Shown here piece by piece: positions 1-15,724 of a DNA stretch of 15,724 bases. A model generated the notes under the pieces. It had not been told where the DNA came from and made no database searches. It saw only the letters and a list, made by a program, of their open reading frames with translations. Within the stretch, counting starts at the first letter, position 1. Every line of letters begins with the position of its first letter. This stretch comes from Anaerolineaceae bacterium (GTDB lineage Bacteria > Chloroflexota > Anaerolineae > Anaerolineales > Anaerolineaceae): contig JAQVUC010000004.1 in assembly GCA_028699715.1 (NCBI GenBank), positions 1 through 15,724 on the forward strand, given 5' to 3'. The position numbers and the translations under genes were made by a program.

Positions 1-2492
1 AGGAACGCCGCGAAACGCGCCAGGAATTGGGCTTGCCGGATGATGAGAATCTACCGGCTGGCAAGCGCGTTTACCAACGTGAGCCTTTTGCCGCGGATGT
101 GAGCGAAGGCAAGAACGACCCGATCTACAACGCCCATTCCTACCACACCAAGGTGCCCCACAAAGCCATCATGCGCTATATCCTGCACTACACCGACCCG
201 GGCGATATCGTTTTTGATGGTTTTTGCGGCACGGGCATGACCGGCGTGGCAGCCCAACTCTGCGGCGACAAAAAAACCGTCGAAAGCCTGGGCTACCGAG
301 TGGACGGTAAAGGTGTGGTCTGGGAAGGCGACAAAGCCATCTCCCGCCTGGGGGCGCGCAAGGCAGTCCTGAATGACCTTTCCCCGGCGGCCACCTTTAT
401 TGCCTACAACTACAACACGCCGGTGGACGCGCGTGCCTTTGAGCGCGAAGCCAAGCGCGTCCTGGCAGAAGTGGAAGCGGAATGCGGCTGGATGTACGAA
501 ACCTGGCACCCAAATTGTGATGATCCCAACCAGGTGAAGGGCAAGATCAACTACACCGTCTGGTCAGACGTCTACCGCTGCCCGCATTGCGGGCAGGAAA
601 TGGTCTTTTGGGATGTGGCAGTTGATCAAAAGGCTGGCGGCATTAGAAGTGACTGGGAGTGCCCTGGTTGCGCCAGCTTGCTGGCTAAAACTCCCAAAAA
701 AAACAGCGGCGCGCTGCGGGTGGAACGGGTTTTTGATACCATCTACGATCGCGCTCTGCAGCAGACCATCCAACAAGCCCGCCAAGTGCCGGTGATGATC
801 AATTACTCGGTTGGCAAGAAGCGTTTTGAGAAAAAACCAGATGAATCCGATCTGCAATTGATCAAGAAAATTGAAGCGAGTGATATCCCTTACCAATTTC
901 CCACGGATAAATTGCCCGATGGTTTTAATACTGCACAACCAAAAATCAGCCATGGTTTAACCCACGTACACCATTTTTTTACTAAACGGAACAATTATCT
1001 GTATTCGAGATTGTTCTATAATTTAAAAAATCATACTATTCTTTTTCTCATTACTTCTTCCATGATAAATACCTCAAAACTCTATGCATATAGGACTAAT
1101 GGGAAAGGCGGTGACATTTCAGGGACATTGTTTATTCCTACTCTTAACCAAGAAATAAATGTTCTCTATGCAATAAAGAATAAATTAAATCGACTAAAAA
1201 ATTTCTTTTATGGTGGAGCAATAGGCAATTCTTTAATAGAAGCAATTTCATCAAGTAATATTGAAAAAAGAACAGAAAATGCGTACCAATACATATTCTT
1301 GGACCCTCCATTTGGTGGCAACTTGATGTATTCGGAGCTCAACTTTTTATGGGAAGCTAGATTGGGTGTTTACACCAACAATAAAAAAGAAGCAATTATT
1401 AATAAAGAACAAAAAAAAACATTGGCAGAATATCAAACACTAATAGAAGAGTGTTTTGAAAAATTTTATAAACTTTTAAGACCGGGTCATTGGATGACGG
1501 TTGAGTTTCACAATTCCCAAAACCCGGTTTGGAACTCTATCCAAGAAGCGCTCCAACAGGCAGGTTTTGTGATCGCAGACGTGCGCACACTTGACAAGCA
1601 GCAGGCGTCCTTTAAACAGATTACCACTTCTGCAGCTGTCAAGCAAGACCTAATTATTTCTGCCTACAAATCCACCTTTGAATTTGAACAGAAGTTTTCA
1701 ATAAATGGCGGCAGTACCCAAGGGGCATGGGAGTTCATCCGCCAGCACCTCGAACAACTGCCGATGCCTGACGCGCAGGCTGGTAACATCCAAATCCAGA
1801 GTGAACGTACGCCTTACTTGCTCTACGACCGCATGTTGGCTTTTCACCTGGTGCGCGGGCTGACAATCCCGCTTTCTTCCAGTGAGTTCTACCAGGGGCT
1901 TTCGCAGCACTGGCTGATGCGCGATGGTATGGCTTTCACGCCCTCCCAGGCTTTTGCCTATGATCAATTACGCCTGGTTTCAGACAAAGTGGAACAGCTC
2001 TCGCTGTTCGTGACCGATGAAGCCAGCGCCATCCAGTGGCTTAAAGCCGAGTTGGATCCCACAACCGGCAACGGACCGCAAACCTACAGCGACCTGCAGC
2101 CCAAGTTCCTCAAGCAGTTGCACCAGGAACGCTACGAAAAACTGCCTGAACTGCAGGTGATCCTCAGGCAGAGCTTCTTGCAGGATGACGAAGAACGCTG
2201 GTTCGTGCCTGACCTGGAAAAACAAGCTGACCTGGAAGCCCTGCGCGAGCAAGCGCTGCTGCATGAGTTCAACGAGTACACACGCGGTAGCGGCAAGATC
2301 AAGGTCTTCCGCGCCGAAGCCATCAAAGCCGGCTTCAGCAAAGCCTGGGCGGAACACGCCTACGACCGCATCGTGGCGGTGGCGGAACGCCTGCCTGAGC
2401 AAGCGCTGCAGGAAGACCCCAAGCTGAAACTTTATTACGATAACGCCCTGAACCGCGCCAGGAAACAACCGAAACAATCGCAACTTTTATAG
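1..2492 (+). CDS. Amino-type (N6A/N4C) DNA methyltransferase, 5'-partial
   Basis: Probable S-adenosylmethionine-dependent DNA methyltransferase acting on an exocyclic amino group (N6-adenine or N4-cytosine), presumably marking host DNA. The frame is open to the left edge, so the true start lies upstream; a TTG at 27 is only the first possible start inside the window. Numbered from that TTG, a motif X-like stretch (SYHTKVPHKAIMRYI) leads into SAM-binding motif I, DGFCGTGMT at 64-72. Two CxxC pairs (C185/C188 and C212/C215) form a likely zinc ribbon. The catalytic DPPF is at 426-429. The order X-I-(long insert)-IV is alpha- or gamma-like, not the beta order common in N6_N4_Mtase proteins. The C-terminal third is unassigned. 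About 950-1480 is strikingly AT-rich compared with the rest of the gene. It ends 27 nt before the next gene. Methylase identity is firm; target and base specificity are unknown. Confidence 0.88.
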   Translation, partial: ERRETRQELGLPDDENLPAGKRVYQREPFAADVSEGKNDPIYNAHSYHTKVPHKAIMRYILHYTDPGDIVFDGFCGTGMTGVAAQLCGDKKTVESLGYRVDGKGVVWEGDKAISRLGARKAVLNDLSPAATFIAYNYNTPVDARAFEREAKRVLAEVEAECGWMYETWHPNCDDPNQVKGKINYTVWSDVYRCPHCGQEMVFWDVAVDQKAGGIRSDWECPGCASLLAKTPKKNSGALRVERVFDTIYDRALQQTIQQARQVPVMINYSVGKKRFEKKPDESDLQLIKKIEASDIPYQFPTDKLPDGFNTAQPKISHGLTHVHHFFTKRNNYLYSRLFYNLKNHTILFLITSSMINTSKLYAYRTNGKGGDISGTLFIPTLNQEINVLYAIKNKLNRLKNFFYGGAIGNSLIEAISSSNIEKRTENAYQYIFLDPPFGGNLMYSELNFLWEARLGVYTNNKKEAIINKEQKKTLAEYQTLIEECFEKFYKLLRPGHWMTVEFHNSQNPVWNSIQEALQQAGFVIADVRTLDKQQASFKQITTSAAVKQDLIISAYKSTFEFEQKFSINGGSTQGAWEFIRQHLEQLPMPDAQAGNIQIQSERTPYLLYDRMLAFHLVRGLTIPLSSSEFYQGLSQHWLMRDGMAFTPSQAFAYDQLRLVSDKVEQLSLFVTDEASAIQWLKAELDPTTGNGPQTYSDLQPKFLKQLHQERYEKLPELQVILRQSFLQDDEERWFVPDLEKQADLEALREQALLHEFNEYTRGSGKIKVFRAEAIKAGFSKAWAEHAYDRIVAVAERLPEQALQEDPKLKLYYDNALNRARKQPKQSQLL
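950..1480. other. AT-rich mosaic segment inside the methylase gene
   Basis: Hand count over 961-1440 gives 149 G+C in 480 bases (31%), against 68% in the line at 421 and 52% in the line at 2101. The reading frame is kept throughout. The segment covers roughly codons 308-485, including catalytic DPPF and the preceding region where an alpha-type enzyme would carry its target-recognition domain. It also holds T7 (974-980) and A9 (1411-1419) runs. The likely reading is a recombined or separately acquired specificity segment; relaxed codon use is an alternative. Confidence 0.6.
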
Positions 2493-2519
2493 CCGGGAGC
2501 AAAGAGGAGGGTAAATAAC

Positions 2520-5500
2520 ATGCAGACACTGGTTGATTGGGAAAAACGGCTAAAACCCTTCTTTGATAGCGGCTTACGCATCATCGGCGAAATCCCTTTA
2601 AATGAAACAGATGTCGATGAACTGGCGGAAGAAGTACGGAATTTCTTAGCTGGATTCGATAAATTCACCAGGGCTACAAATGTCCTCACAAAGCGTTTCC
2701 CGTACGTTTTCATGACCCTTTTAGCACATTTTTCGATGTACAACGACCAGTCAGGCTACTGGCACGCCTTACAGCTAGCGGTAGGTGCTGACCAGGACCT
2801 GCACATCACACTCTGGCATCGAAAATTTGTTAATCTCGCCCGACAGAACGATTTGAAGACCTTCGACATCTCGGACACTCCAAATTATTATGTGGCTTCA
2901 ATCCGATTCCACGGAGGCATTCCCTCTTATTATTTGCCTGACTTTTTTGAGCGAATGGTCGTCCCCGCAGTAACACAACAGGATTTGCGGCATATTCCAC
3001 CAAAAGAAGCAATGAATTACTTACTACAACATGCCTATTTGGGGAGGCCCGTGTTGGATTTCCTTGAAAACAGCGGAGAGATGGGCCTCGCGTGGTTTGA
3101 AGCCTGCTGCAAGCTGGTGCGGCATGCCAGGGAGAATCATGGTGAAGTGCTGCCCATCTCGGCTGTACCTGAGCTGCCCTACAACATCCACACTTTTTTC
3201 GAGCAGTATAGTGAGGAAAGAGAGGATCGTGGCTTTCACTGGAGCCGACCCTACCTTGAGGTAAACCCACTTTCTGAAGAATCACCAGTCATCCTGCGCA
3301 TCCCGGAACAAATTGTTACCACACAGGCAGCCAGCCAGTTATTGCATTGGACGATCACCTGGCCTGGGCAAAATCAACCTATCATAGAATTCTGCGAGGT
3401 CTATCACCGCAGGTCAGGTGAATTCACAACCGAAGTAATCAAACCCATCCCGATCCCGACTACCCAGGTGACCGTTTCCATATCCTCAAGTAAACAGGAC
3501 GGGCAAGAGGACTCAGAGCTGCGCCGATGGACGCTTCCCTTGCTTCCTGCGCCTGATCAGGCCCCGCTTGTCGCATTTCGCGCAAACTTCCGGCAGGTCC
3601 CAAATGCCAAATCCCTGCCAGCCCAGGTCTTGTTTCTGCTCACGCCCAAAACAGCTGAATTGGAGATAGATTCAGCGACCACAGAACGGGTTGACTCGTT
3701 TTCCACATTTTCTGGGGGTTGGAAAGATTGGAAACTGGAACAATGGGATCTGACACACGCGATTTCCTTGCTGCTTCACCAGGACGGCCAAGTGCTCGGC
3801 AACATTGTACCTGTGGCAAGGGAAGTGGATCTGCCTGAGCTCTGGGGAGGACATCGTTTTGATTACCAGGAAAATCTTGATCAGCCTCTGTATACCTCAG
3901 GGATACCCTCGGTAAGCATTCCTGTCTCACTTAGCAGCGCGATGTACCAGGCTCTGAGGGATTGGAAAGTGCGCGCTATCTCGATCGGAGAAGCCGCGCC
4001 GACAATCGATCGCCAGGTTGCTTTCCTGGAATACCAGGATGAACTCCTGTTTGAAGGATCCCGCGCCATACTTTCCCTGGAGAAGCTTTTAGGAGAAAAA
4101 CCTGCTGGCATTTACGAGATCAGGGTTAGCGGTCCACGAGGAATCAAGGCTGACTTTCGCTTGCGGCTTTGGCCAAAACTCCTCCTACAAAATTATTCCA
4201 AGGAATTGCCCAAAGCAGAAGAGTCGAGAGACCCTGTGGAGTTTAATGTGTATTTACAGGATGGGGCTTGGGTGGAAACCCAAGCAGGCGCTGACCCCGT
4301 AGAGATCGCCCAAGAAGGCAACGGCTTCTCAATTAATGCCGCACCTCATCTGCGGAGTATTGCACTCGACCTGGTCACAATCAGTAGAACCGGAGAATAT
4401 ATCCGCGTTCCAGTCAGCATTCCCGTGGTACGGTTGCGCTGGGGCTTGGTGGAAGAGAATATGCCAAACTTGCTTGAATTCGGGCAAACTGTCTTCCATG
4501 TTTCAAAAGAAAGATTTTCTCAATATGAAAGCCGCGCTTTACATGTGGAAATGCACGGTCTCAGCGGTATGCTGGAACGTATGCGCTGCCAGCTAGTGGA
4601 ATCGGATAATGAAAACAACCTTTTACAGTTAGCTGATTTTCGCAAGACTGGCTTCAAATCGGACTGGCTAAAAGTTTCGCTGTTGCAGTTTAGTGAAACC
4701 ATAAGAGCAATTAATACCCAGGTCCAATTTCAGCTGGTTTTTCAGAAAGACAATAGAAGCCCGCTAATCAGGTACGCCCTTTTGGAAATCAGTCCCGAGA
4801 TGGATGTCAGGGATGCAAGGTTGGAACAGGTATCTGAGTGTGATTGGAAATTAATCTGGAAGGAAGACTTACCGCTCAAAAACCGGCGGGTGATGCTCAA
4901 ATCCGCCTGGTTGCCTTGGGCGCCGACCATTGAAGAAAAGATACCGGATGAAAACAGGGGTGAATACACCTTCAGAAATATTGCTTTGCCTCCCTCCAGC
5001 TTTGAGATTTACTTCTACACCAAGTTCAAGTGGGAACCAACAGCAGTAGTGCCACCTGAAAACGCAGCCTGCTTAGAAGTTGATTTGATCTCACCCGTTG
5101 AAAGACTGGCATTTCTTGAAAAACCACAACAGGGGCACGACGCGCAATTTCGTCAATTGATCGAAAAAGCCTGTATCCTCGATAGGATGGGAAACTCACA
5201 GGCACGGGACGAGGTTGTTTCAGCTTCCGCGACACATCTCAGACACCTGCGTGATATCCAAACTTTGGTTGGGACGATTAAGTGGATGCGAGAAACAGAT
5301 AATATGTATCCACCTATTAAGAGCTTCTTTTATCAATATACCTTCCACCAATCTCTTGTAAATGCAATGCTGGAAAAGTACCCCCAAGGGGATGCCAACC
5401 TGATCGATTACCTACATTTAATCACACCCAGTATTTACGCTGACTCTGCCAGGATACTGCTTGAGAAAGTGGACGACCCGCTTGTAACTTCGACCTGCAT

Positions 5501-6380
5501 CAAGGCACTTATTAATCGAAAAGACGATGGATTGTTGCCTGTGATTAATTCCATGATTTCCCAGGGGCGAATATCGGCTGAGAGCGCCGCTGAGTTATTG
5601 ACCGAAGACCCTAATCAGAGCTTGTGGGCATTGGAGATAATTGCGGATTTGAATCAGAGCGATTCCTTGGACAACCTGCTCAAGGCAATCCTGCCTTCCA
5701 TAGTTAAGGAGTATACCCAGACCGTTCCAGAATGGCTGGAAGATGTTCTGTTGCGCGCATTAACTGTCGAAAAATCGCGAGAGTTGATCTTGCGATATTT
5801 GAAGATCCTTGTTGAGCTTGATCGAGATGAGGTCTGGAAAGTCTTGGTCGATAAGGAGAGACTTGAACAAGTTACTCACGAGGAATTCATTGAGTTTCTT
5901 AAATCTGATCCAGAAAAAGCCTTGGAGGTTCTCAGGCAACACAACGATTCTGACTGCTATTCTGAAGATATCTTGAAGTTGGAAGAGGAATTCCCATCCG
6001 CTGCGGGTCTGTTGACCCCTGGAATGACTTTATCCACGCCTTTTGGAGTAGTTCAAATTGTAAGTATTAAGCTCGTAGACGGTACACGTGCACAATCTGT
6101 CAAGAAAGCGGATGTCAACTTCATCCTTAAAGTAACAAGCGGCTCAGGACTTGACAGGATAGAGGCTGATTTGGACTTTAGCCAAATGACATTGCAATTT
6201 CGAAATGAAAAACAGATATACTGCTGTAGTGTTTGTAATAATTTTTGTCATCCCAAGCAACATAGATTGAATGAACATCACCGTCAAACACATCCTTACG
6301 ATCCGCAAGCCTTTATTCTCAGGTGCGGTAGCATTCCTTTTACCATAAATGACATACAGCACATAGATGCTATAGACTAA
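2520..6380 (+). CDS. Large unknown protein (1286 aa) with C-terminal C2H2-type zinc finger; probable defence-system partner
   Basis: I do not recognise a named domain over most of this protein. The ATG is supported by a strong ribosome site (GAGGAGGG, 2504-2511) 8 nt upstream. The N-terminal part is helical and contains a conserved-looking HGGIP patch at 131-135. Residues about 250-850 look beta-rich. About 900-1150 reads as consecutive amphipathic helices, possibly a HEAT-like solenoid. About 1150-1230 is again beta-rich, and the end carries C1236/C1239/H1254/H1258, a C2H2-type finger that could bind nucleic acid. There is no signal peptide, membrane segment, Walker motif or nuclease motif that I can see. 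It sits between the methylase and the DUF1998 helicase, 15 nt before the latter. By size and position it could play the role of the large DruH-type partner of DruE in Druantia, but this is inferred from context, not from recognised homology. Confidence 0.8.
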   Translation: MQTLVDWEKRLKPFFDSGLRIIGEIPLNETDVDELAEEVRNFLAGFDKFTRATNVLTKRFPYVFMTLLAHFSMYNDQSGYWHALQLAVGADQDLHITLWHRKFVNLARQNDLKTFDISDTPNYYVASIRFHGGIPSYYLPDFFERMVVPAVTQQDLRHIPPKEAMNYLLQHAYLGRPVLDFLENSGEMGLAWFEACCKLVRHARENHGEVLPISAVPELPYNIHTFFEQYSEEREDRGFHWSRPYLEVNPLSEESPVILRIPEQIVTTQAASQLLHWTITWPGQNQPIIEFCEVYHRRSGEFTTEVIKPIPIPTTQVTVSISSSKQDGQEDSELRRWTLPLLPAPDQAPLVAFRANFRQVPNAKSLPAQVLFLLTPKTAELEIDSATTERVDSFSTFSGGWKDWKLEQWDLTHAISLLLHQDGQVLGNIVPVAREVDLPELWGGHRFDYQENLDQPLYTSGIPSVSIPVSLSSAMYQALRDWKVRAISIGEAAPTIDRQVAFLEYQDELLFEGSRAILSLEKLLGEKPAGIYEIRVSGPRGIKADFRLRLWPKLLLQNYSKELPKAEESRDPVEFNVYLQDGAWVETQAGADPVEIAQEGNGFSINAAPHLRSIALDLVTISRTGEYIRVPVSIPVVRLRWGLVEENMPNLLEFGQTVFHVSKERFSQYESRALHVEMHGLSGMLERMRCQLVESDNENNLLQLADFRKTGFKSDWLKVSLLQFSETIRAINTQVQFQLVFQKDNRSPLIRYALLEISPEMDVRDARLEQVSECDWKLIWKEDLPLKNRRVMLKSAWLPWAPTIEEKIPDENRGEYTFRNIALPPSSFEIYFYTKFKWEPTAVVPPENAACLEVDLISPVERLAFLEKPQQGHDAQFRQLIEKACILDRMGNSQARDEVVSASATHLRHLRDIQTLVGTIKWMRETDNMYPPIKSFFYQYTFHQSLVNAMLEKYPQGDANLIDYLHLITPSIYADSARILLEKVDDPLVTSTCIKALINRKDDGLLPVINSMISQGRISAESAAELLTEDPNQSLWALEIIADLNQSDSLDNLLKAILPSIVKEYTQTVPEWLEDVLLRALTVEKSRELILRYLKILVELDRDEVWKVLVDKERLEQVTHEEFIEFLKSDPEKALEVLRQHNDSDCYSEDILKLEEEFPSAAGLLTPGMTLSTPFGVVQIVSIKLVDGTRAQSVKKADVNFILKVTSGSGLDRIEADLDFSQMTLQFRNEKQIYCCSVCNNFCHPKQHRLNEHHRQTHPYDPQAFILRCGSIPFTINDIQHIDAID

Positions 6381-6395
6381 AGCGAGGAAATAGAC

Positions 6396-9300
6396 ATGGC
6401 AATTCACCCACTTGAGACAACAGAGAAAATCAGGGCGACCTACATCAATTACCTGAAAACGATCAAGCCTTTCCAGGACGAAAAACTCCGCGAGGAATTC
6501 GCCCAGGCAATTGAAGCTCAAGACATGCTAGTGAAGGGACCTCTGCTGCAGATTGCACTTCCTTATCTTAAGGACAAAAGTATACACGAATTGGTGGATG
6601 AAGGGGTCCTCTCACCTCGCTTTGAGCAACTCAGCTCAGATTCCCTGCAGTACAACCGTTCCTTGTATGCGCATCAGGTCAAAGCCATTCGGAAAGCTGT
6701 TGGTGGTCGCAACCTGGTGGTCAGCACGGGTACTGGTTCTGGCAAGACAGAGGCTTTCTTGATCCCGATTCTGGATTATCTTTTACGTGAGCAGGACGCA
6801 GGCACCTTAAGCCAACCGGGCGTGAGGGCACTGCTGCTTTACCCCATGAACGCTTTGGCAAATGACCAGATGAAACGCTTGCGCCGCATTCTGGAAGAAT
6901 ATCGAGCCATTACTTTTGGACGGTACATCAACGTCCAGGAAACACCCGAAACCAAGTCGCAAGCAGAAGCAAATTTTAAAAGTATGTACGGCGATTCCGA
7001 GCCCTTCATCGATAATGAGTTGAAATCGCGTGAGGAAATGCATGCGTCACCGCCGCATCTGCTTGCGACCAACTATGCAATGCTGGAATATTTGCTTCTA
7101 CGGCCTAAAGCCACAAATCTGTTTGATGGGGAAACCGGAAAGCATTGGCATTTCATCGTTCTCGATGAAGCCCATGTTTACGACGGGGCAAATGCCACGG
7201 AAATTGCTATGCTGTTGCGACGTCTGCAGGACCGGGTTGCGGGAGATAAACATGGGAAAATCAAGGGAATTGCCACGTCTGCTACCCTCGGGGCTGGTAT
7301 CAAAGACTACAGCCAGGTTGCGACATTTGCGAGTAACCTGTTCAATAAGAGCTTTGTTTGGGATGATGATGACCCTAAAGAACAGGATGTCGTCGGAGCT
7401 GAGTTTTTACCTGTTGATGCCCTCGGCGAGACATGGGGACAGCTCAGTCCTGAAGTGTACCACCTGATAAACGAGGTTTTGGGTTCCGACCGCGATTCGG
7501 TCAATAGCCTGTCAGAGCTGAAAAACATTGTGATCAATTCTGGCGTCCCTGATAAAGTAGTTGCTGATGCAATTTTTGCAGGTCAAAAGAAAAAGGATTT
7601 CGCCATCCAAACATTCCTCTACGAAGTGCTAAAAGGGGATAATAACATCAGAAAACTGATCAGCTCGCTAAAGGAACAATCAGCATTATTACATGTAGCT
7701 GCCCAGCATGTCTTCCCTGGTGATCCTAAGGCTGAACAAGGTTTGATAGACCTGGTAGCCTTGGCTGTCATGGCGAAGACAGGGGAGGAGGAAATGCCAC
7801 TATTGCCAGCTCGCTATCACACCTTTGCGCGCGCGTTAGAGGGGGCTTTTGTCTGTCTAAATGAAACTGATCATCCAAAAGATAAACCGCGATTATTCCT
7901 TCAGAGGAAAAAGTTTTGTGAATATTGTGGCAGTCGGGTGTTTGAACTAGCTAACTGTACGCGCTGCGGCACAGCGTATATTGTTGGAAAAGAAACCCGA
8001 GGCAGTGGGTTGGATGAAGAGTTAAAAGAGTTTGAGATCAAGGTCAATAACAATTACCTATTACAGGATAGCCAGATATACATCAGTGAAACCGCAAGGG
8101 ATACAAATTATTACATCTTTTCCGGCGAGGTTTCTTCTGCTAACGAGGATGAGAGTGTTTCGAATGAAAAAGATGTTTCTGATGATGAATCATACGAAAA
8201 CGCCACTGAAATCATACTCTGCACAAAGTGCGGACAGGTACAAAATCCTCAGCAAGCACCCCAATGCTCTTGTGGTAGTGAATACATGCGAAAAATGCAC
8301 AAAATAGATCTCCAGGGTAAGAGGACCCTTAAACGATGTGTCAGCTGTTCTACAAGGAATAGCTCAGGAGCAGTGTATCGGTTTTTAACTGGCCAGGATG
8401 CCCCTGTTAGTGTAATTGCCGGAAGCTTGTATGACCAGCTTCCTGCTTCTACGAAACAGGATGAGCGTCAGTACCCTGGCGAAGGGCGTAAGATGCTGAA
8501 TTTCACTGACAGCCGCCAAAATGCGGCTTTCTTTGCTCCTTACATTGAACGCATCCATATGCGCAACCTGCGACGTGGTCTGATTATGCAAACAGTCAAG
8601 GAGCAATTAGAGGGAGATATTGAGGACATCAGATTGCAGGATCTGATTGCACCATTGGAAAAAAATGGAGAAAAGATTGGACTGTTTAAGTCGAAAGACT
8701 CTCCAACGGAAAAGAAGAAAAGGATGGCTATCTGGTTAATGCAGGATTTTACCCCGCTCGACCGGCGCATCAGCCTCGAAGGGTTAGGTTTATTATCCTT
8801 TGAACCTACCATCCCAGACACTTGGCCAACTTTCCTCGATGACTCGGTTTTGCACTTGAGTCGAAAAGAGACTTACAACTTATTAAGACTTCTGCTAAAC
8901 AGCTTGAGATATCAAGGTGCAGTATCCTATCTTATGCCCGATCAGAATATTTATAAAGAAATTGAGTTTTCTCCGCGCAACCGACTGCTCTATTTTCGAT
9001 ATCAAGAAGCTAATCCCAAAGCGGGAGTCTTCTCCTGGATGCCCTCCGAAGGGCATGAAAATACCAGGTCAGAATATCTAAAGCGCCTGCTTATTTCAAG
9101 AGGGTTAAGTGATTATGAGGCTAAAAAGGCATCAAGAGATCTCCTTGAAGATATCTGGGGTTTTATTATCAATTCTGAATGGAAAATGGTTCTTAACACT
9201 GTAAACCATAACTACGCCCACATAGGCGTTGTACATTCATTAGCTCATGAAATGTGGAAGGTAACACTCCCATCCGAGAATTACAACGAGTGGATGATTT

Positions 9301-11339
9301 GCAGTCACTGCAGAAACGTATATCCTGCTGGTGTCGGTGAGACATGTTTGACCTACTTCTGCCCAGGACCACTGGAACCCCTCGCAAAACACAAAGAGGT
9401 GTTGGAGTCTAACCTCTTCAGAATTAATTACAGTAAGAACAAACTTATCCCTCTTGAAGCTCAAGAACATACAGCCCAGTGGACTGCAAAAAAGGCGGCT
9501 GAAGTTCAATCCCAATTTATCAAAGGTGAGATTAACCTATTAAGTTGTTCTACTACTTTTGAATTAGGCGTAGATGTTGGGGATCTGCAAGCTGTAATGA
9601 TGCGCAATATGCCGCCGACTACCGCAAACTATATTCAAAGAGCTGGACGTGCAGGAAGGCGTACTGATAGCGCTGCTTATATTATGACATACGCCCAAAG
9701 ACGGTCGCATGATCTCACAAACTACACAGATCCCGTAGGTATGGTATCAGGAAAGTTGAAACCACCTCACACACCATTGACTAATGAAAAGATCATACGC
9801 CGTCATCTCCATTCAGTTGTCTTTGCCAGTTTCTTAAAGTGGATCAAAAGTGAATTCGGAATTGAATACAAGAACGTAGGTGATTTCTTCTGCCCGAAGG
9901 AGGGGCCCGACGGGCGTGATTATCTCAGGCAATATCTGGATGCCAAGTCGGACACTCTGATGACAGAGATGGTAAACGTGATACCCAAAGGCATGCACGG
10001 GATTCTTGGACTGGAAGACTGGTCCTGGGTTCAACAACTCACTAATCAACAAAACGAAGGTGTGCTCGATTTAGCTCACGATGACATAAATGATGATGTT
10101 ACCTATCTGAAAGAAGAGATATCCAAGCTTTGGGATGAAGCAAACACAACTCATAATAGTCGGTTGATTCGTGTGGCTGAAGGGAAAGAAAGAATCATCA
10201 ATCAAATCATATCTGCCGAATTGTTGGGGTTCTTAGGCTCAAGAAATGTATTGCCAAAGTACGGTTTCCCTGTTGATGTAGTTGAGCTACAGACTAACCA
10301 TCTCGATCCAAAAACCGGTTCAACAGAAGTGGATTTATCTCGAGATCTACGAGTAGCAATCTCGGAATTTGCCCCTGGGAGTCAGGTAATAGCAGGTAAA
10401 AAAATCTGGACGGGGGGAGGCCTGAAAACCCATCGGACTAAATCATGGCAACAGGTCAATTATGTTATTTGCAGAAGCTGCCAAAGGATGTACCAGGGAT
10501 TCGAAAATGAAATCCCAACCATTTGCAGTTGTGGCGAGTCATTACCCCAGTCTCGTACGTTTATTATCCCAGTTACTGGCTTTATTGCATCCACTGAAGT
10601 TGCATCTCCAGGCGAAGAGCCACCTCAGCACACCTACGCGAGCAGCGTCTATTTTGGTGATTATGAACAAAAGAAATCTGAAAAGTATGATGAAAGTACA
10701 GAATTTATTCTTGAAGACTCGCTTGGCCTTCCCACTCTATATCGCTATTCCCGGTTTGGATATATGATCTTGGTCAACAAAGGATACAACAATGGATTTG
10801 ATATATGCAAGGAATGTGGATACGGAAAAGTAGTAAATTTTCTTGTTGGTGGAACTCAGCAAAAACACAAGAACCCAATTACTGGAAGGGATTGTCACGG
10901 AGATTTTTTGCGAAGGGTGGATCTTGGACACCGATATCTAACAGATGTCCTGGAGATCAAGCTTAGCCTTCCTCCAGCGATGAGTTACCCAAACCCAATG
11001 CGCAGTTTGATGTATGCATTGTTGGAAGGAGCCAGTGAATCACAGGGGATTCGCCGATCTGACATTGATGGAACTCTCTACTACCGGTCAGGAGGTGAGG
11101 CACCATCGATCATCTTGTTCGACGCAGTGCCAGGTGGAGCAGGCCACGTTGAAAACATCAAGGATCATCTCAGAGATGCAATATTCGCAGGATATAAAAA
11201 GGTCAAAGATTGCCAGTGTGGTGAAGACACGAGCTGTTATAACTGCTTGCGCAATTACTCGAATCAACGCTTCCATGACGATCTCCAACGTGGTTACGCT
11301 ATAAAAATGATGAGGCTATTACTTAATAATGGGATTTAA
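6396..11339 (+). CDS. SF2 DEAD/DEAH-type helicase with C-terminal DUF1998 (DruE / DrmA-DrmB-like)
   Basis: ATP-dependent nucleic-acid translocase or helicase. Walker A GTGSGKT is at 112-118, motif Ia YPMNALANDQ follows, motif II DEAH is at 257-260 (followed by VYDGANA), and motif III SAT is at 295-297. Helicase domain 2 resumes with FTDSRQNAA at 703-711, motif V TTFELGVDVG at 1053-1062 and motif VI QRAGRAGRR at 1081-1089. Cysteine pairs typical of zinc ribbons occur at 508/511 with 521/524, 609/612 with 624/626, 648/651, 969/972 with 984/989, 1359/1362 with 1377/1379, and 1471/1474. The C-terminus has FDAVPGGAG followed by C1606/C1608/C1614/C1617, the DUF1998 (MrfA-type) signature. DISARM splits helicase and DUF1998 between DrmA and DrmB, whereas Druantia DruE fuses them, as here. 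GAGGAA (6384-6389) precedes the ATG by 6 nt. The last 11 nt overlap the next gene. Family assignment is firm; the exact system is inferred. Confidence 0.9.
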   Translation: MAIHPLETTEKIRATYINYLKTIKPFQDEKLREEFAQAIEAQDMLVKGPLLQIALPYLKDKSIHELVDEGVLSPRFEQLSSDSLQYNRSLYAHQVKAIRKAVGGRNLVVSTGTGSGKTEAFLIPILDYLLREQDAGTLSQPGVRALLLYPMNALANDQMKRLRRILEEYRAITFGRYINVQETPETKSQAEANFKSMYGDSEPFIDNELKSREEMHASPPHLLATNYAMLEYLLLRPKATNLFDGETGKHWHFIVLDEAHVYDGANATEIAMLLRRLQDRVAGDKHGKIKGIATSATLGAGIKDYSQVATFASNLFNKSFVWDDDDPKEQDVVGAEFLPVDALGETWGQLSPEVYHLINEVLGSDRDSVNSLSELKNIVINSGVPDKVVADAIFAGQKKKDFAIQTFLYEVLKGDNNIRKLISSLKEQSALLHVAAQHVFPGDPKAEQGLIDLVALAVMAKTGEEEMPLLPARYHTFARALEGAFVCLNETDHPKDKPRLFLQRKKFCEYCGSRVFELANCTRCGTAYIVGKETRGSGLDEELKEFEIKVNNNYLLQDSQIYISETARDTNYYIFSGEVSSANEDESVSNEKDVSDDESYENATEIILCTKCGQVQNPQQAPQCSCGSEYMRKMHKIDLQGKRTLKRCVSCSTRNSSGAVYRFLTGQDAPVSVIAGSLYDQLPASTKQDERQYPGEGRKMLNFTDSRQNAAFFAPYIERIHMRNLRRGLIMQTVKEQLEGDIEDIRLQDLIAPLEKNGEKIGLFKSKDSPTEKKKRMAIWLMQDFTPLDRRISLEGLGLLSFEPTIPDTWPTFLDDSVLHLSRKETYNLLRLLLNSLRYQGAVSYLMPDQNIYKEIEFSPRNRLLYFRYQEANPKAGVFSWMPSEGHENTRSEYLKRLLISRGLSDYEAKKASRDLLEDIWGFIINSEWKMVLNTVNHNYAHIGVVHSLAHEMWKVTLPSENYNEWMICSHCRNVYPAGVGETCLTYFCPGPLEPLAKHKEVLESNLFRINYSKNKLIPLEAQEHTAQWTAKKAAEVQSQFIKGEINLLSCSTTFELGVDVGDLQAVMMRNMPPTTANYIQRAGRAGRRTDSAAYIMTYAQRRSHDLTNYTDPVGMVSGKLKPPHTPLTNEKIIRRHLHSVVFASFLKWIKSEFGIEYKNVGDFFCPKEGPDGRDYLRQYLDAKSDTLMTEMVNVIPKGMHGILGLEDWSWVQQLTNQQNEGVLDLAHDDINDDVTYLKEEISKLWDEANTTHNSRLIRVAEGKERIINQIISAELLGFLGSRNVLPKYGFPVDVVELQTNHLDPKTGSTEVDLSRDLRVAISEFAPGSQVIAGKKIWTGGGLKTHRTKSWQQVNYVICRSCQRMYQGFENEIPTICSCGESLPQSRTFIIPVTGFIASTEVASPGEEPPQHTYASSVYFGDYEQKKSEKYDESTEFILEDSLGLPTLYRYSRFGYMILVNKGYNNGFDICKECGYGKVVNFLVGGTQQKHKNPITGRDCHGDFLRRVDLGHRYLTDVLEIKLSLPPAMSYPNPMRSLMYALLEGASESQGIRRSDIDGTLYYRSGGEAPSIILFDAVPGGAGHVENIKDHLRDAIFAGYKKVKDCQCGEDTSCYNCLRNYSNQRFHDDLQRGYAIKMMRLLLNNGI

Positions 11340-12054
11340 ACAAATTTCTGTAGGTGCAGATAGATTCCTTGCCTTGCAATGGGCAAATTTTGCATATGAA
11401 CTTTTCGCATCTTCCACAGATCAGGATGCGTCAAGAAAATTTCTGAGTGATTATTTGGGAAGTCAAATGCTTGGTAAAGTGTCGACCCGTAAAACTGCAG
11501 ACCAACTCAACCGGCTTTGGCTGTATGCAGATGACCCTTACCAGAGTTTGCGCGAAATGACTCGCTCACTATTAATGCCAATTGACCATGCCCAGATGGC
11601 AGTCCTTCATCTGGGTATGGCAATGAATGTTTTTCCTATCTATCGTGAAACTATGCGCGTCATAGGGACTCTGGAAAGGCTTACAGATCAAATTTCAACC
11701 AAAGCAATAACTACCAGAGTCATCGAAAAATTCCCAACTACTACATCAATACCTCGAACTGTTAACCGAGTACTTCAGACATTGGACGATTGGCATTTCA
11801 TTGAGCTATTTCAAGGGAATGTTGTTATCAAGGAAATTCTCTTACCAGATCCAAGACTAGTAAACTGGTATATCATAGCCATCCTACGAGCAACTGAACA
11901 GAACGAAATTACCTTGCAGGAACTTGAAACTTGTCCACTGAAGTTAGGTATCAACTTTTCACATCCCAGAAGCGTCATCAATGGCTCCGAAGACCTATTT
12001 TTTGGCCGTAACCAAATGGGATTAGAAGTTGTTCGATTAAAGACACTCCAATAA
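11329..12054 (+). CDS. 241-aa helical protein with probable winged helix, coupled to the helicase
   Basis: Unrecognised by direct motif. The ATG at 11329 lies inside the end of the helicase gene (11-nt overlap), so translation is probably coupled; a weak GAGG (11312-11315) lies 13 nt upstream. The N-terminal 110 residues are amphipathic helices. About 120-172 alternates short helices with a strand pair ending in NVVIKEIL, the pattern of a winged helix. Overall order and size recall BrxA (DUF1819) of BREX: a helical body, then a winged helix, in a small accessory protein encoded within a defence operon. That is a resemblance of layout only. There is no HxK motif, so it is not a phospholipase D-type DrmC. 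It may bind DNA or bridge the large subunits. Confidence 0.78.
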   Translation: MGFKQISVGADRFLALQWANFAYELFASSTDQDASRKFLSDYLGSQMLGKVSTRKTADQLNRLWLYADDPYQSLREMTRSLLMPIDHAQMAVLHLGMAMNVFPIYRETMRVIGTLERLTDQISTKAITTRVIEKFPTTTSIPRTVNRVLQTLDDWHFIELFQGNVVIKEILLPDPRLVNWYIIAILRATEQNEITLQELETCPLKLGINFSHPRSVINGSEDLFFGRNQMGLEVVRLKTLQ

Positions 12055-12138: not shown

Positions 12139-13125
12139 ATGTCTCAACGGCAGCAGTTGGAACGAATCATGGAAATTGACAGGCGCATCCGGGAGGGGGC
12201 ATACCCGAACGCGGAAAAGCTGGCGGAATACCTGGAGGTCAGCAGGCGGGTGATTTTCAATGACCGCAGTTTCATGATTTATCGCTTGGGAGCGCCAATT
12301 GAGTTCGACCGGGAGCGGGGCGGTTGGTTTTACACCGATAAGACGTGGTCTTTGCCGGGGATATATGTGACTCAAGGTGAGTTGATGGCTTTCTTTCTCT
12401 CTCTAGAGATTGCTAAGCGCTACATCGGAACTGACCTTGAGTCACCTCTCCGCTCTGCCGTGGATAAGATCGCCAAAGCGGTCAAAGGCCCAGTCAGCGT
12501 GGAGATCAACGAGCTGCGTTCCCACTATACCTTTTCCGAATTCAACACCATCAGCGTGGATGCCCAACTGCTGATCGACCTGCACCAAGCCATCCTCAAC
12601 CGCCAGCAGGTCTGGATGCGCTACTACTCAGCCAACCGGGGCGTGGTGTCTGAAAGGATTGTGTATCCCTATCACCTGCACAACTTCCAGGGGGATTGGT
12701 TTTTGGTCGCCTTTGATACCTTCCGCAGCGATTTTCGGCTCTTCCTGGTTGGGCGTATCCAGGAGATGAAGTTGCTTAAAGAGAAGTTCGACTGGGATGA
12801 GAATTTCTCAGCAGAGGATTGGATTGGCAGCGGCTTCCAGCTGCACGCGGGGGGCGAAGCGGAGGATGTGCAGATCTGGTTCAGCCCGAACAAAGCCCAG
12901 TTCATCCGTGAGCGCAAGTGGCATCCCAGCCAGGCTATCGAGGAACAGCCGGATGGCAGCCTCGTTCTGCACCTGAAGACCGGTGGCTTGGTGGAAGTGC
13001 GTAACTGGGCGCTGCAGTTCGCGGATGATGCGGAGGTACTGAAACCCGACAAATTGAGGGAAGACATTATAAATGCTGTCAGAAAGTTATCCGGGCATTA
13101 CGGCATCGATCATGCCGCTGAATGA
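12139..13125 (+). CDS. WYL-domain transcriptional regulator (HTH-WYL-WCX)
   Basis: A DNA-binding regulator, 328 residues, the usual size for HTH-WYL-WCX proteins. Residues about 5-65 form a winged HTH (NAEKLAEYLEVSRRVIFNDR). A linker at about 75-130 precedes the WYL domain at about 140-212. The signature there is GDWFLVAFD at 185-193, with W187-F188-L189 in place of W-Y-L, and the downstream arginines FRLFLVGRI agree with the family. The C-terminal part to about 320 looks like a WCX domain. WYL domains are thought to sense nucleic-acid ligands, and members such as BrxR and CapW repress defence operons. AGGAAAGG lies 9 nt before the ATG, and the inverted and direct repeats sit just upstream, suggesting autoregulation. 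It could control the upstream helicase operon, the downstream genes, or both. Confidence 0.9.
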   Translation: MSQRQQLERIMEIDRRIREGAYPNAEKLAEYLEVSRRVIFNDRSFMIYRLGAPIEFDRERGGWFYTDKTWSLPGIYVTQGELMAFFLSLEIAKRYIGTDLESPLRSAVDKIAKAVKGPVSVEINELRSHYTFSEFNTISVDAQLLIDLHQAILNRQQVWMRYYSANRGVVSERIVYPYHLHNFQGDWFLVAFDTFRSDFRLFLVGRIQEMKLLKEKFDWDENFSAEDWIGSGFQLHAGGEAEDVQIWFSPNKAQFIRERKWHPSQAIEEQPDGSLVLHLKTGGLVEVRNWALQFADDAEVLKPDKLREDIINAVRKLSGHYGIDHAAE

Positions 13126-13160: not shown

Positions 13161-13712
13161 ATGAAAGAAAAGACCATTATCTACGGAATAACCAACTTAG
13201 GTTTGCTGTTTGTCCCCGAAAGCCGAGCGAAGGAACTGGCAGAGAGCAATAAAGCTTTGCTAACAGCCAAAACCTGGGGGGAGTTCAAGTCGCTGGTGTC
13301 GCATGAAATGTACGAATTCTACCTGGTCAACTCAGCCTATTACGAAGGTCCTTGCGAGCCCGAAGATGGCGATTATGCTCCCTTCGATATCCCCCCTGAG
13401 ACCCCTTTCACCCCTAACGACGTCGTAACTTATGATGTCCTCCCAGCCTATCCAGAGATTGAGATGTCGGAGTGGATGCCGGAGGGAATTCAAGCCAAGT
13501 TCGGCCGCAAGGTGCGCTACTCCGCCATGGACATGAACGTTCCCGCAGGCGACATCCTGGTGTTGGATGAAAGGCATATGGATGAGATCGTCGCTGAGCT
13601 GGTGAAACACGGTTTTAATTGCAGGCGGGATGACGGCCTGCTAATGGCCGGCACCACCCTCGATTTCGATCCGGTTGACTATCCGAATGTTGAGACCGAT
13701 GATAAAGACTAA
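13161..13712 (+). CDS. Acidic 183-aa protein of unknown function
   Basis: I do not recognise this protein. A strong GGAGGAGAGG ribosome site precedes the ATG by only a few bases, and the gene follows the WYL regulator by 35 nt, so both are probably on one transcript. By hand count it has 36 Asp/Glu and 16 Lys/Arg (net about -20), with an acidic tail (ETDDKD). The middle, about 65-100, is rich in proline and acidic residues. No signal peptide, membrane segment, catalytic motif or metal-binding cluster is apparent. GC content resembles the WYL gene, not the AT-rich gene to the right. Roles could include an accessory partner of the regulator, an acidic DNA-mimic type protein, or an unrelated cargo gene; none is demonstrated. 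Confidence 0.75.
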   Translation: MKEKTIIYGITNLGLLFVPESRAKELAESNKALLTAKTWGEFKSLVSHEMYEFYLVNSAYYEGPCEPEDGDYAPFDIPPETPFTPNDVVTYDVLPAYPEIEMSEWMPEGIQAKFGRKVRYSAMDMNVPAGDILVLDERHMDEIVAELVKHGFNCRRDDGLLMAGTTLDFDPVDYPNVETDDKD

Positions 13713-13877
13713 CGAGATCCAAACTAATGAAACTAAGCATAATTAGATCCGCACGAAATATTAATATCACATATATTGCGAAATCAACGCAACATGTTTT
13801 TCGAGTGATTAGAGATTGTTGAGCAAATGTTTATTCAGGGCTCATCTGGATTTGACATAAATAACCAGGAGAAACCA
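13713..13877. other. 165-nt AT-rich intergenic gap at a compositional boundary
   Basis: No ORF or RNA gene is seen. It contains a 10-bp palindrome ATATTAATAT (13758-13767) and a small inverted repeat TTGCG/CGCAA (13776-13780 and 13788-13792), both weak. No confident promoter or intrinsic terminator was found, although the length and composition suit a promoter for the RecQ-like gene. A ribosome site, CAGGAGA, lies just before that gene. Confidence 0.5.
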
Positions 13878-15724
13878 ATGAAACTAACTGACTATATTCA
13901 AACAAAATTAAATGAAACTATCCAGATGGATAAGAGAATTCTTTATATCTTAAAAGGTTTTGCCAATATTAGACTTGAATTGAATGTGCCAAAGTTTGGA
14001 GATATCAATTTTTCAAAATTATTATCCGATCAAGATAAAGAAAAACCAGATATATCAAATCTACATGGTGCTTACTATCTATTCTATGAAGAAGCTAGTC
14101 TTCTTGGTGATTTACTCTCAGCGCTTTCTTACGTCAATTATGATGTGAAAATTGTTAACTGTAATATTTATAATGGGGTGTATCCAACTTTTTCGGGGCA
14201 CATCAATACTGCCGGTGTTGAAGCTTTTTATGGTGAAGAGCATCACGTATTCCAAGACTTATTTTCAACAATGGAATATGAAAATGGGATATGCTACGTG
14301 ACCTTCAATCCAATTAGTGTTCAAAAAAGTATTGAAGTAATTGATCTTTTTGAATTACCTTCAAAAACCTTGACCCCAAAAAAAATGAATGATTGGGATA
14401 GTATAGATTCTATTGATATATCAAATCATCCAACGTCATTTGCATCTCTTGTCGATAATATTCTGAGTGAGAAATCCTCTTCATTTTTCCTTGAAACTCA
14501 AGAAGATTTATCCCCGTCAATTTTGACGAGATTATGCTTCCTGTCAAAATTTGCAGATGTTACATTGCATAAAGTTTTCCCTTATCCAGATTACACACTA
14601 GAGACTCAACCAAATCCTGCCTTTTTGGATATCTTAAGGCGTCGAAACCCAAGTTATAATTTTAAAAGATTCTTGTGTTACAAAAATCCTTCTATAAACA
14701 ACGATACGGTCGAAATTAATCAAGAAAAAGTGATTAGCAAAATTGTTGAACAAGCAGAGAGGGCAAGATCAGATCAGGACTACAAAGATATTTTCGTAAC
14801 AGCTCCTACCGGATCGGGAAAATCGATAATGTTCCAAATTCCTGCAATATTTCTTGCTGAAAAATACTCCGGTTTTTTGACAATTGTTATATCTCCACTA
14901 ATTGGTCTGATGAATGACCAGGTCAACAATATTGAAGACCTAACTTCGAGCGCCGCTACCATTAATAGTGACTTTACTCCTGAAGAAAAAAGTAAGGTTC
15001 TTGAAAATATTAGGAATGGGAAAACAAATATTCTTTACCTTTCGCCCGAATCGTTTTTGATGAATTCTGATATAGCAACGCTAATAGGTGAGAAAAGTAT
15101 AGGACTTTTTGTAATCGATGAGGCTCACACAGTGGTTACATGGGGGCAAAGTTTTAGACCAGATTACTGGTATCTGGGCGAAAGGATCAAACAATTAAGA
15201 ACAAGCGGAAAAATGTCATTTCCAATAGCCACATTTAGTGCCACAATTCCTTATGGCGGAACCGACAATATGTACCAGGACATGATCGACTCATTAAACA
15301 TGGAAACATATGAAACAGAATTTCTTGGCATTGTCAGAAGGGATGAAATACAATTTTCTATCAACAATTACATCAGTAAAGTAGACTATGAGCTAGAAAA
15401 GAGGGAAAGGGCTGTAAAATCATTGAAAGAGTTGATCGATAGCCGAACAAAAACCATTGCCTATTTTCCTTTCAAGCGGACCATAGGCGATATATATCGT
15501 GAACTGGACTCGAGCTCTACGACAATTTATCACGCAGGACTACATTCTTCTGCGAAGAGATTAAGTGCTTACCAATTCAGCATTGGAGAAAAGCATTTAC
15601 TCCTGGCAACCAAAGCCTATGGGATGGGAATAGATATTCCCGATATTGCATGCGTATATCACTTTGCCCCAACCGGGACGCTTTGTGACTATGTACAAGA
15701 AATTGGTAGGGCAGCCAGAAAACC
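13878..15724 (+). CDS. RecQ-like SF2 helicase with long N-terminal extension, 3'-partial
   Basis: The frame from ATG 13878 is open to the right edge (615 codons visible). It is preceded by CAGGAGA a few bases upstream. Helicase motifs run in order: APTGSGKS at 309-316 (Walker A), SPLIGLMNDQV (RecQ-type motif Ia), DEAH at 414-417 within IDEAHTVVTWGQSFRPDY (the RecQ signature after motif II), SAT at 454-456, ATKAYGMGID at 577-586 (motif V), and QEIGRAAR at 607-614 (motif VI, in the RecQ form Q-E-x-G-R-A). Canonical RecQ begins its helicase core near the N-terminus. Here about 300 residues precede it with no recognised domain, so this is not housekeeping RecQ. RQC and HRDC domains, if any, would lie beyond the window. 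One sampled line is only 30% GC, far below the neighbouring upstream genes. It is probably a defence or mobile-element helicase. Confidence 0.87.
   Translation, partial: MKLTDYIQTKLNETIQMDKRILYILKGFANIRLELNVPKFGDINFSKLLSDQDKEKPDISNLHGAYYLFYEEASLLGDLLSALSYVNYDVKIVNCNIYNGVYPTFSGHINTAGVEAFYGEEHHVFQDLFSTMEYENGICYVTFNPISVQKSIEVIDLFELPSKTLTPKKMNDWDSIDSIDISNHPTSFASLVDNILSEKSSSFFLETQEDLSPSILTRLCFLSKFADVTLHKVFPYPDYTLETQPNPAFLDILRRRNPSYNFKRFLCYKNPSINNDTVEINQEKVISKIVEQAERARSDQDYKDIFVTAPTGSGKSIMFQIPAIFLAEKYSGFLTIVISPLIGLMNDQVNNIEDLTSSAATINSDFTPEEKSKVLENIRNGKTNILYLSPESFLMNSDIATLIGEKSIGLFVIDEAHTVVTWGQSFRPDYWYLGERIKQLRTSGKMSFPIATFSATIPYGGTDNMYQDMIDSLNMETYETEFLGIVRRDEIQFSINNYISKVDYELEKRERAVKSLKELIDSRTKTIAYFPFKRTIGDIYRELDSSSTTIYHAGLHSSAKRLSAYQFSIGEKHLLLATKAYGMGIDIPDIACVYHFAPTGTLCDYVQEIGRAARK

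Follow-up and report, generated by a model that had tools for sequence, protein, structure and literature searches.

A probable BREX-Druantia chimera in Anaerolineaceae: a six-gene operon with a DruH/DruE-like pair between BREX type 3-like genes and without PglZ or BrxF

We analysed a stretch of 15,724 bases of Anaerolineaceae DNA, the window, which is one whole contig (C3) of a metagenome-assembled genome (MAG; G000, 1.70 Mb, 73% complete) and carries what a preliminary description had called a four-gene operon of a candidate Druantia-DISARM-like defence system. Four co-directional open reading frames (ORFs) on the plus strand, with junctions of 27, 15 and -11 nucleotides (nt), are present just as that description gave them. 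The first (3..2492) encodes a PglXI/BrxXI-type adenine methyltransferase that matches the PADLOC PglXI model PDLC02541 with 1104 bits (E = 0) as well as Pfam N6_N4_Mtase; 829 amino acids are seen, and the start is lost because the window is a whole contig and the gene runs off its end at the 5' side. Its motif I, FCGTG, lies at nt 222 and its DPPF motif at nt 1302, with a CPHC/CPGC pair at nt 579 and 660 between the two. The second gene (2520..6380) encodes a protein of 1286 amino acids, X, which belongs to no PADLOC family and which we placed by hhalign comparison with the DruH family and by AlphaFold2 (AF2) models. The third (6396..11339; 1647 amino acids) encodes a DruE-like, YprA-family superfamily 2 helicase with a DUF1998/MZB domain (Pfam DEAD, Helicase_C and MZB), and the fourth (11329..12054; 241 amino acids), overlapping the helicase gene by 11 nt, a BrxA that matches PDLC02437 over residues 7-227 with 106 bits. 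The methylase and helicase motifs are intact. Scored with PADLOC, the four proteins point to no single named subtype, the methylase and BrxA going to BREX (bacteriophage exclusion), the helicase to DruE and X to nothing; the earlier view of a hybrid layout outside the standard schemes, in which a helicase fused to DUF1998 stands with an amino-methylase and a BrxA-like protein, held up, and the layout recurs as a unit in six distinct relatives.

We read the operon as having six genes rather than four, namely NERD-UvrD, BrxC, PglXI, X, the DUF1998 helicase and BrxA, of which the window holds the 3' four. In the related locus L002 (UBA6105; X 84% identical to window X), a BrxC gene and a NERD-UvrD gene stand in front of PglXI, and this BrxC is a DUF6079 protein (PADLOC PDLC02482, 1313 bits; PF19557, 1196 bits). 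The same two genes lie in the window's own genome on another contig, C226, at 162-3860 (BrxC, 94% identical to L002 BrxC; PDLC02482, 1300.9 bits over residues 1-1231) and 3899-5578 (NERD). The end of C226 holds the first 33 residues of PglXI, and the window resumes at residue 96 in the numbering of the L002 PglXI, which has 937 amino acids. Just in front of the operon, C226 (locus L128) carries at 5815-9052 a VirD4-type coupling protein, a DUF3801 protein and a RepA_N/DUF6017 replication protein; the operon adjoins a conjugative or plasmid-like element.

The order NERD-BrxC-PglXI-X-helicase-BrxA is contiguous and on one strand in six distinct relatives: L002, L020 (G080), L021 with L093 (G337), L159 (G862), L161 (G939) and L165 (G983). 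L164 (G930) repeats L021 (99.9% over 19.4 kb) and L158 repeats L002 (100% over 20 kb), and neither was counted as distinct. The gaps between genes are -17 to 125 nt, except for one of -146 nt that depends on the start chosen, and helicase and brxA lie -11 to 12 nt apart. Partial relatives, bounded by contig edges, are L162 (BrxC-PglXI-X-helicase) and L175 (PglXI-X), while two copies are broken: L004, with X in two frames and short remnants of PglXI and BrxA, and L160, with X, helicase and BrxA retained beside remnants of PglXI and NERD. Between the window genome and L002, all six genes are under purifying selection, with ratios of nonsynonymous to synonymous substitution rates (dN/dS) of 0.06-0.24 (0.06-0.12 for NERD, BrxC, PglXI and the helicase). 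Hence, given the order that recurs in six distinct relatives and the selection on all six genes, the four-gene layout is more than chance, and the composition, gene order and recurrence of the operon are well supported. In comparison with L020 and L021, X and BrxA stand out as the most divergent, at 26-29% identity versus 41-61% for the other four genes; likewise, DruH is reported as more diverged than DruE (PMC13192584). The 19.4 kb shared by L021 and L164 are 99.9% identical between genomes of two genera, which may reflect either a recent transfer or near-identical DNA placed apart, and in G080 a NucC-type nuclease (L020 18159-18893; 307 bits) follows brxA, pointing to extra effectors beside the operon. 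Of the related loci, the three that bear names derive from MAGs of Anaerolineaceae/Chloroflexi.

X turned up in 14 of 400 phylum genomes, 29 of 396 class genomes and 26 of 400 order genomes, in overlapping draws and with partial matches counted. A BrxC of the L002 type occurred in 30 of the 396 class genomes (E of 1e-20 or better), and the two occurred together in 8 of them where 2.2 were expected (7 versus 2.1 without the window's own genome). Five of these eight have X and BrxC on one contig (G080, G337, G445, G721, G742); in G000 and G741 they lie on two contigs with breaks inside PglXI or X, and in G555 on separate contigs without any sign of linkage.

X had been presented as a giant unknown, a label that gives way to that of a remote DruH relative. 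Its family comprises 75 proteins at E <= 0.001, window X included. PADLOC returned no match for window X and no DruH match for seven X homologues, three of which match MzaA, whereas its DruH models, as a control, catch four of four DruH-family proteins (10-13 models each), down to about 20% identity. As these models miss X yet catch divergent DruH, X lies well outside the DruH family. In profile-profile comparison (hhalign), a 49-row X profile matched the DruH family with a probability of 96 and an E of 4.5e-9 over 812 columns, against E values of 0.043 and 0.035 for two reversed controls and 0.35-0.79 for five permuted ones; a 32-row profile gave a probability of 69.6 and an E of 4.2e-5 over 695 columns, and a single DruH sequence did not match the X profile (E 0.58). 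The alignments held 63 of the 75 homologues (A1), 32 homologues (A2) and 26 of 43 DruH-family sequences (A3), and the 49-row profile combined A2 with X from 17 loci, other X loci being excluded. Judged by these profiles, X is a remote DruH relative: the added control with DruH models makes it more remote, and the profile match stands. The N-terminal region of X contains an invariant GGIP (HGGIP at nt 2910); around residue 135, a GG[IL]P is common to the X and DruH families. The zinc finger that had been proposed for X is C-terminal and of the C2H2 type, with C1236, C1239, H1253 and H1258 (nt 6225-6293) each conserved to 90% or more across 63 rows.

The AF2 models of X, for residues 1-850 (predicted local distance difference test score, pLDDT, 86.7; predicted template modelling score, pTM, 0.70) and 651-1286 (pLDDT 89.6, pTM 0.69), predict a helical N-terminal region, tandem immunoglobulin (Ig)/fibronectin type III (FN3)-like sandwiches, a helical solenoid, a small C-terminal beta barrel and the zinc finger, where domain names beyond the Foldseek matches are our reading of predicted secondary structure. 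The Foldseek matches are generic, being mostly Ig/FN3 proteins with low TM-scores, some of them Ig/FN3 ectodomains of receptor tyrosine phosphatases, and no DruH entry is among the best 50 rows for either half. DruH itself is described in PMC13192584 as having helical ends around Ig-like domains, as probably sensing phage and as possessing a nuclease activity that depends on dimerisation. We rejected X as a diverged PglZ on its predicted fold, since no PglZ/alkaline-phosphatase fold is among the best 50 Foldseek rows per half, and also because X and PglZ both stand beside the helicase in loci L090 and L112. Compared by sequence with solved structures, X had five weak matches (E 0.039 to 1.2), two of them zinc fingers; tblastn gave none in plasmid records, and a single motif scan of viral contigs was empty. 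PF27205 and PF27201 are absent from the precomputed domain column for X homologues, and the Pfam copy scanned misses DruH itself too. In some X proteins that lie away from BREX loci (L023 7863-11933, L024 8365-12396, L029 7845-11255), the place of the zinc finger of window X is taken by a terminal domain similar to the C-terminal part of MzaA (185-196 bits), and in L023 a DUF2357/PDDEXK_7 (McrC-like) gene lies next door. Two X homologues, P0008 and P0030 (83% and 85% identity), are labelled at source as Thermotogaceae and Spirochaetales MAGs, which would mean cross-phylum transfer or mis-binned contigs.

For the helicase, DruE models score best (DruE1 671.8 and DruE3 601 bits, versus 82 bits for BrxHI/HII and 55 for DrmA). 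On reference proteins, the DruE1 model gives 571 bits for E. coli DruE and 324 for E. coli ARMADA YprA, and the DruE3 model 348 bits for the latter. The protein carries GTGSGKT, DEAH and QRAGR motifs and eight CxxC pairs, with the MZB/DUF1998 domain at residues 1538-1618 (nt 11007-11249); as it ends 29 residues after MZB, it has neither a C-terminal nuclease domain nor an RNase H. In NERD, the motif E-x-D...E-V-K is kept in 5 of 5 aligned sequences. Since a NERD gene also sits beside X-helicase loci with no BREX core in sight (L024, L028, L167), it probably belongs to the X-helicase half of the operon.

BrxF is a putative sensor of inactive STAND type, and PglZ is the putative effector of BREX and is commonly taken as one of its hallmarks. 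Neither PglZ nor BrxF lies in the operon of any six-gene locus, and no PglZ stands between helicase and brxA. With PF08665, no PglZ was found in G000, G400, G401, G080 or G337 (3 of the 16 genomes searched were positive, none beside X), nor in G862, G939, G930, G983 or G1021 (3 of 9 positive: the control G741 and, weakly and on contigs other than that of X, G947 and G1001); with PDLC02558, none was found in G000, G400, G080 or G337 (3 of 9 positive: G741, G494, G721). G741 was positive in each search that included it, and G494 with both models. Among 24 further X-bearing genomes, ten were PF08665-positive; in G741 and G494 alone the match shares a contig with X. Six of the genomes with the six-gene operon are 95-99% complete (G337, G930, G080, G862, G939, G983). 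BrxF (PDLC02497) is absent genome-wide from G000, G400, G080 and G337, with G741, G445 and G721 positive, and tblastn confined to the loci L159, L161, L164 and L165 gave no BrxF match there.

Bridging relatives retain genes that the six-gene operon lacks, PglZ at two loci and BrxF at four. G741 has NERD-BrxF-BrxC-PglXI on one contig (L130) and X-helicase-PglZ-BrxA on another (L090), G494 has X (its C-terminal end)-helicase-PglZ-BrxA (L112), and G445 has NERD-BrxF-BrxC-PglXI, with PglXI in two frames and X starting at the contig edge (L129). Apart from these, L082 reads BrxF-BrxC-X-helicase-PglXI and L089 BrxF-BrxC-X, each to a contig edge. At the Chloroflexota loci L133, L134, L135, L137 and L139, BrxF-BrxC-PglXI-PglZ-BrxA is found with no helicase-sized gene between, within the locus, which was the extent of the BrxHII search.

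In the BrxC tree, the six-gene loci together with G741 and G445 form one group (9 of 17 rows, 100/100) with L082 and L089 outside, and in the helicase tree L082 falls among pair-only rows (100/100); the pair therefore joined a BREX core at least twice. It can apparently also leave one, to judge from the tree positions of the pair-only loci L163 and L166. The helicase tree further joins L021 and L165 to L090 and L112, which bear PglZ (99/99), and separates them from the group of the window (97/100). In a first helicase tree, seven rows (six BREX-linked and L004) formed one clade (95/94) that split into two groups with more rows. All roots are midpoints; relative to the first trees, the second helicase tree lacks EcArmadaYprA, L025 and L027 but has seven new rows, and the second BrxC tree lacks L136, L138, L139 and L140 but has three new ones. 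In L026, the X-helicase locus has an HmaA-HmaB pair beside it (12053-18459; 1678 and 1086 bits).

Taken together, we consider it probable that the four genes of the window belong to a chimeric anti-phage operon of six, NERD-UvrD/BrxC/PglXI/X/DruE-like helicase/BrxA, a BREX type 3 derivative with a Druantia-III-like pair between PglXI and BrxA, without BrxF and PglZ, and with a proposed mechanism of marking, sensing and cutting. The chimera is real, it recurs, and it is apparently functional. In the mechanism that we propose, PglXI with BrxC and BrxA would methylate a motif in host DNA and so mark it as own; X, via its predicted Ig-like domains, would recognise a phage product or DNA state and license the helicase, which would then translocate along unmarked or replicating phage DNA; and the NERD (PD-(D/E)XK) domain of NERD-UvrD would cut. 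X may cut as well, because E. coli DruH is reported with dimer-dependent nuclease activity (PMC13192584). X, the helicase and NERD would thus do the work of BrxF and PglZ in ordinary BREX. The wider notion of a PglZ-independent BREX, in which the BrxC-PglXI-BrxA marking machinery is wired to a Druantia-type interference module (DruH-like sensor, DruE-like helicase and NERD) that replaced BrxF and PglZ, perhaps more than once, strikes us as evenly poised between right and wrong.

Several observations weigh against the chimeric operon as we describe it, and some of them fit another account, in which a Druantia-III-like pair landed in a BREX type 3 operon that is now a decaying remnant without PglZ and BrxF, the proximity being an accident of mobile elements. 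The X-helicase pair often stands alone, in many loci without BREX genes, so that its coupling to them is not obligatory; the pair-only loci L163 and L166 fall in the window's helicase clade, L163 nested inside it; of the broken copies L004 and L160, the latter keeps the pair and BrxA where PglXI and NERD have become remnants; and the operon's neighbours on C226 are conjugation genes. We nevertheless regard two unrelated neighbours as unlikely, since the identical order in six distinct loci, with helicase and brxA -11 to 12 nt apart, the low dN/dS of NERD, BrxC, PglXI and the helicase, the BREX genes that flank the pair on both sides and the repeated joining of pair and core all argue against it. 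The expectation that the genes travel together is borne out by the six-gene order in six relatives, though not for the pair, which is often found without the methylase and BrxA. Other points bear on the chimeric operon itself. Its copy in the window's own genome is split over C226 and C3, which are not joined in the assembly; the PglZ-free form occurs in two helicase groups and therefore needs two parallel losses or an exchange of the pair; in G445, whose genome is 91% complete, BrxF is present but a PglZ was not found; profile-profile comparison is the sole source of the suggested link of X to DruH; toward the near relative L002, PglXI (81%) rather than X (84%) is the most diverged gene; and which protein cuts DNA is a guess.

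The scores of BrxC, PglXI and BrxA as BREX members, together with the 73% completeness of the window MAG, would also suit an ordinary BREX type 3 whose PglZ acts in trans or has diverged past recognition. We hold this to be highly improbable: PglZ was not found in the six genomes of 95-99% completeness with the six-gene operon, in G741 and G494 a recognisable PglZ occupies the very place between helicase and brxA at which the six-gene loci leave -11 to 12 nt, and X, the candidate for a diverged PglZ, is modelled as helical and Ig/FN3-like. Scarcely any credence goes to membership in a described YprA-helicase system (DISARM, ARMADA, BRIGADE or TALON), although the YprA-family helicase accompanied by a methylase is reminiscent of ARMADA and DISARM, and the NERD nuclease in Chloroflexota of TALON (PMC12458937). 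The six-gene loci have no BrxHII/RapA-like helicase gene (as in ARMADA and DISARM class 1) and no separate DUF1998 protein (as in DISARM), and neither the six genes nor ten further ORFs scanned with Pfam (eight beside X-helicase loci with no BREX core seen, two beside the L002 operon) include one for TPR-CSD or TBP. Moreover, the helicase ends shortly after MZB with no RNase H and its DruE1 score of 672 bits is set against 324 for E. coli ARMADA YprA; TALON, BRIGADE and ARMADA type I are set apart by their descriptions rather than by comparison of helicases.

Downstream of the four genes, the window holds a helix-turn-helix (HTH)-WYL-WCX protein (12139..13125, plus strand; Pfam WYL and WCX) just 3' of brxA, which tblastn also locates 3' of brxA in L002, there in two frames; it is a candidate regulator that possibly belongs to the operon. 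It is followed at 13161-13712 by a 183-amino-acid orphan without PADLOC, Pfam or NCBIfam match, kept after the WYL gene in L002 (83%), and at 13827-15722 by a RecQ-like helicase cut by the contig end, whose top PADLOC match is C3a193 'poss. alt. Cas3' (351 bits), followed by DpdF models, and which has no match in the roughly 4.3 kb examined after brxA in L002. No Rfam families or tRNAs were found in the window.

If the notion of a PglZ-independent BREX is true, BREX and Druantia would be assemblies of exchangeable marking and attacking modules, with PglZ unnecessary wherever another attacker is at hand. The operon also links two defence families. The natural series from BREX with PglZ, through PglZ plus the DruH/DruE-like pair, to the same without PglZ and BrxF lets the role of PglZ be tested directly via methylation and protection. 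According to PMC12839542, much of how BREX parts act is still open, and PglZ is treated as the primary effector, retained by nearly every BREX or related system apart from the DUF499 Type-1/2 BREX-Related systems. The main text of that BREX survey mentions 'Druantia' and 'DruE' 0 times, that of the YprA survey PMC12458937 'PglZ', 'BrxC' and 'DruH' 0 times, and this chimera is not described in the text excerpts of PMC12839542, PMC12458937, PMC13316683 and PMC11090510. Searches of the open-licence literature found no paper that joins 'BrxF' with 'Druantia' and no phrase of the 'lacking PglZ' type; 'PglZ' and 'DruE' appear together in one paper, with one mention each.

Among known systems, DISARM shares with the operon a DUF1998 domain and a methylase and was rejected, as there is no DrmA plus separate DrmB: helicase and MZB/DUF1998 are fused in one ORF, and DrmA models give at most 55 bits. 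ARMADA shares the YprA-family helicase and a PglX-like methylase; it was rejected because the six-gene loci contain no BrxHII/RapA-like helicase gene, and they differ further in having BrxC and BrxA and in DruE-model scores above that of E. coli ARMADA YprA. TALON was rejected on its description, its sequences not being part of the comparison: all six genes are assigned, none as TPR-CSD/TBP, and no RNase H follows the helicase. BREX type 3 has the order BrxF-BrxC-PglXI-BrxHII-PglZ-BrxA. The operon shares with it, by family score, BrxC (DUF6079), PglXI and BrxA and keeps the order BrxC-PglXI-helicase-BrxA; it differs in lacking PglZ and BrxF, in having the DruH/DruE-like pair in place of the SNF2-type BrxHII (absent from the operon, to which that search was confined, with BrxHI/HII models giving at most 82 bits for the helicase) and in the extra NERD-UvrD in front. 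Because three core features are present and three are not, we file the operon as a BREX type 3 derivative and not as BREX type 3, whose six components are those given in PMC12839542, which also reports BrxHII in 77% of type 3 taxa. The Type-1/Type-2 BREX-Related (DUF499, Hma) systems are likewise PglZ-free, with ATPase, methylase and helicase (PMC12839542), and differ in that their ATPases are DUF499 proteins, whereas this operon has a DUF6079-type BrxC and a DruE-like helicase. With Druantia III, the operon shares a DruE-like helicase without nuclease, which is the most frequent helicase state in Druantia III-like systems (PMC12458937), and a large upstream partner with Ig-like domains (predicted in X) and the GG[IL]P motif at the same place; it differs in that X lies outside the DruH families and in that the pair is embedded in a BREX core; DruE is found by family model and DruH by remote homology only. 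Of the Druantia-DISARM likeness in the preliminary description, the Druantia half stands and the DISARM half is unsupported: the nearest parents of the operon are BREX type 3 and Druantia III.

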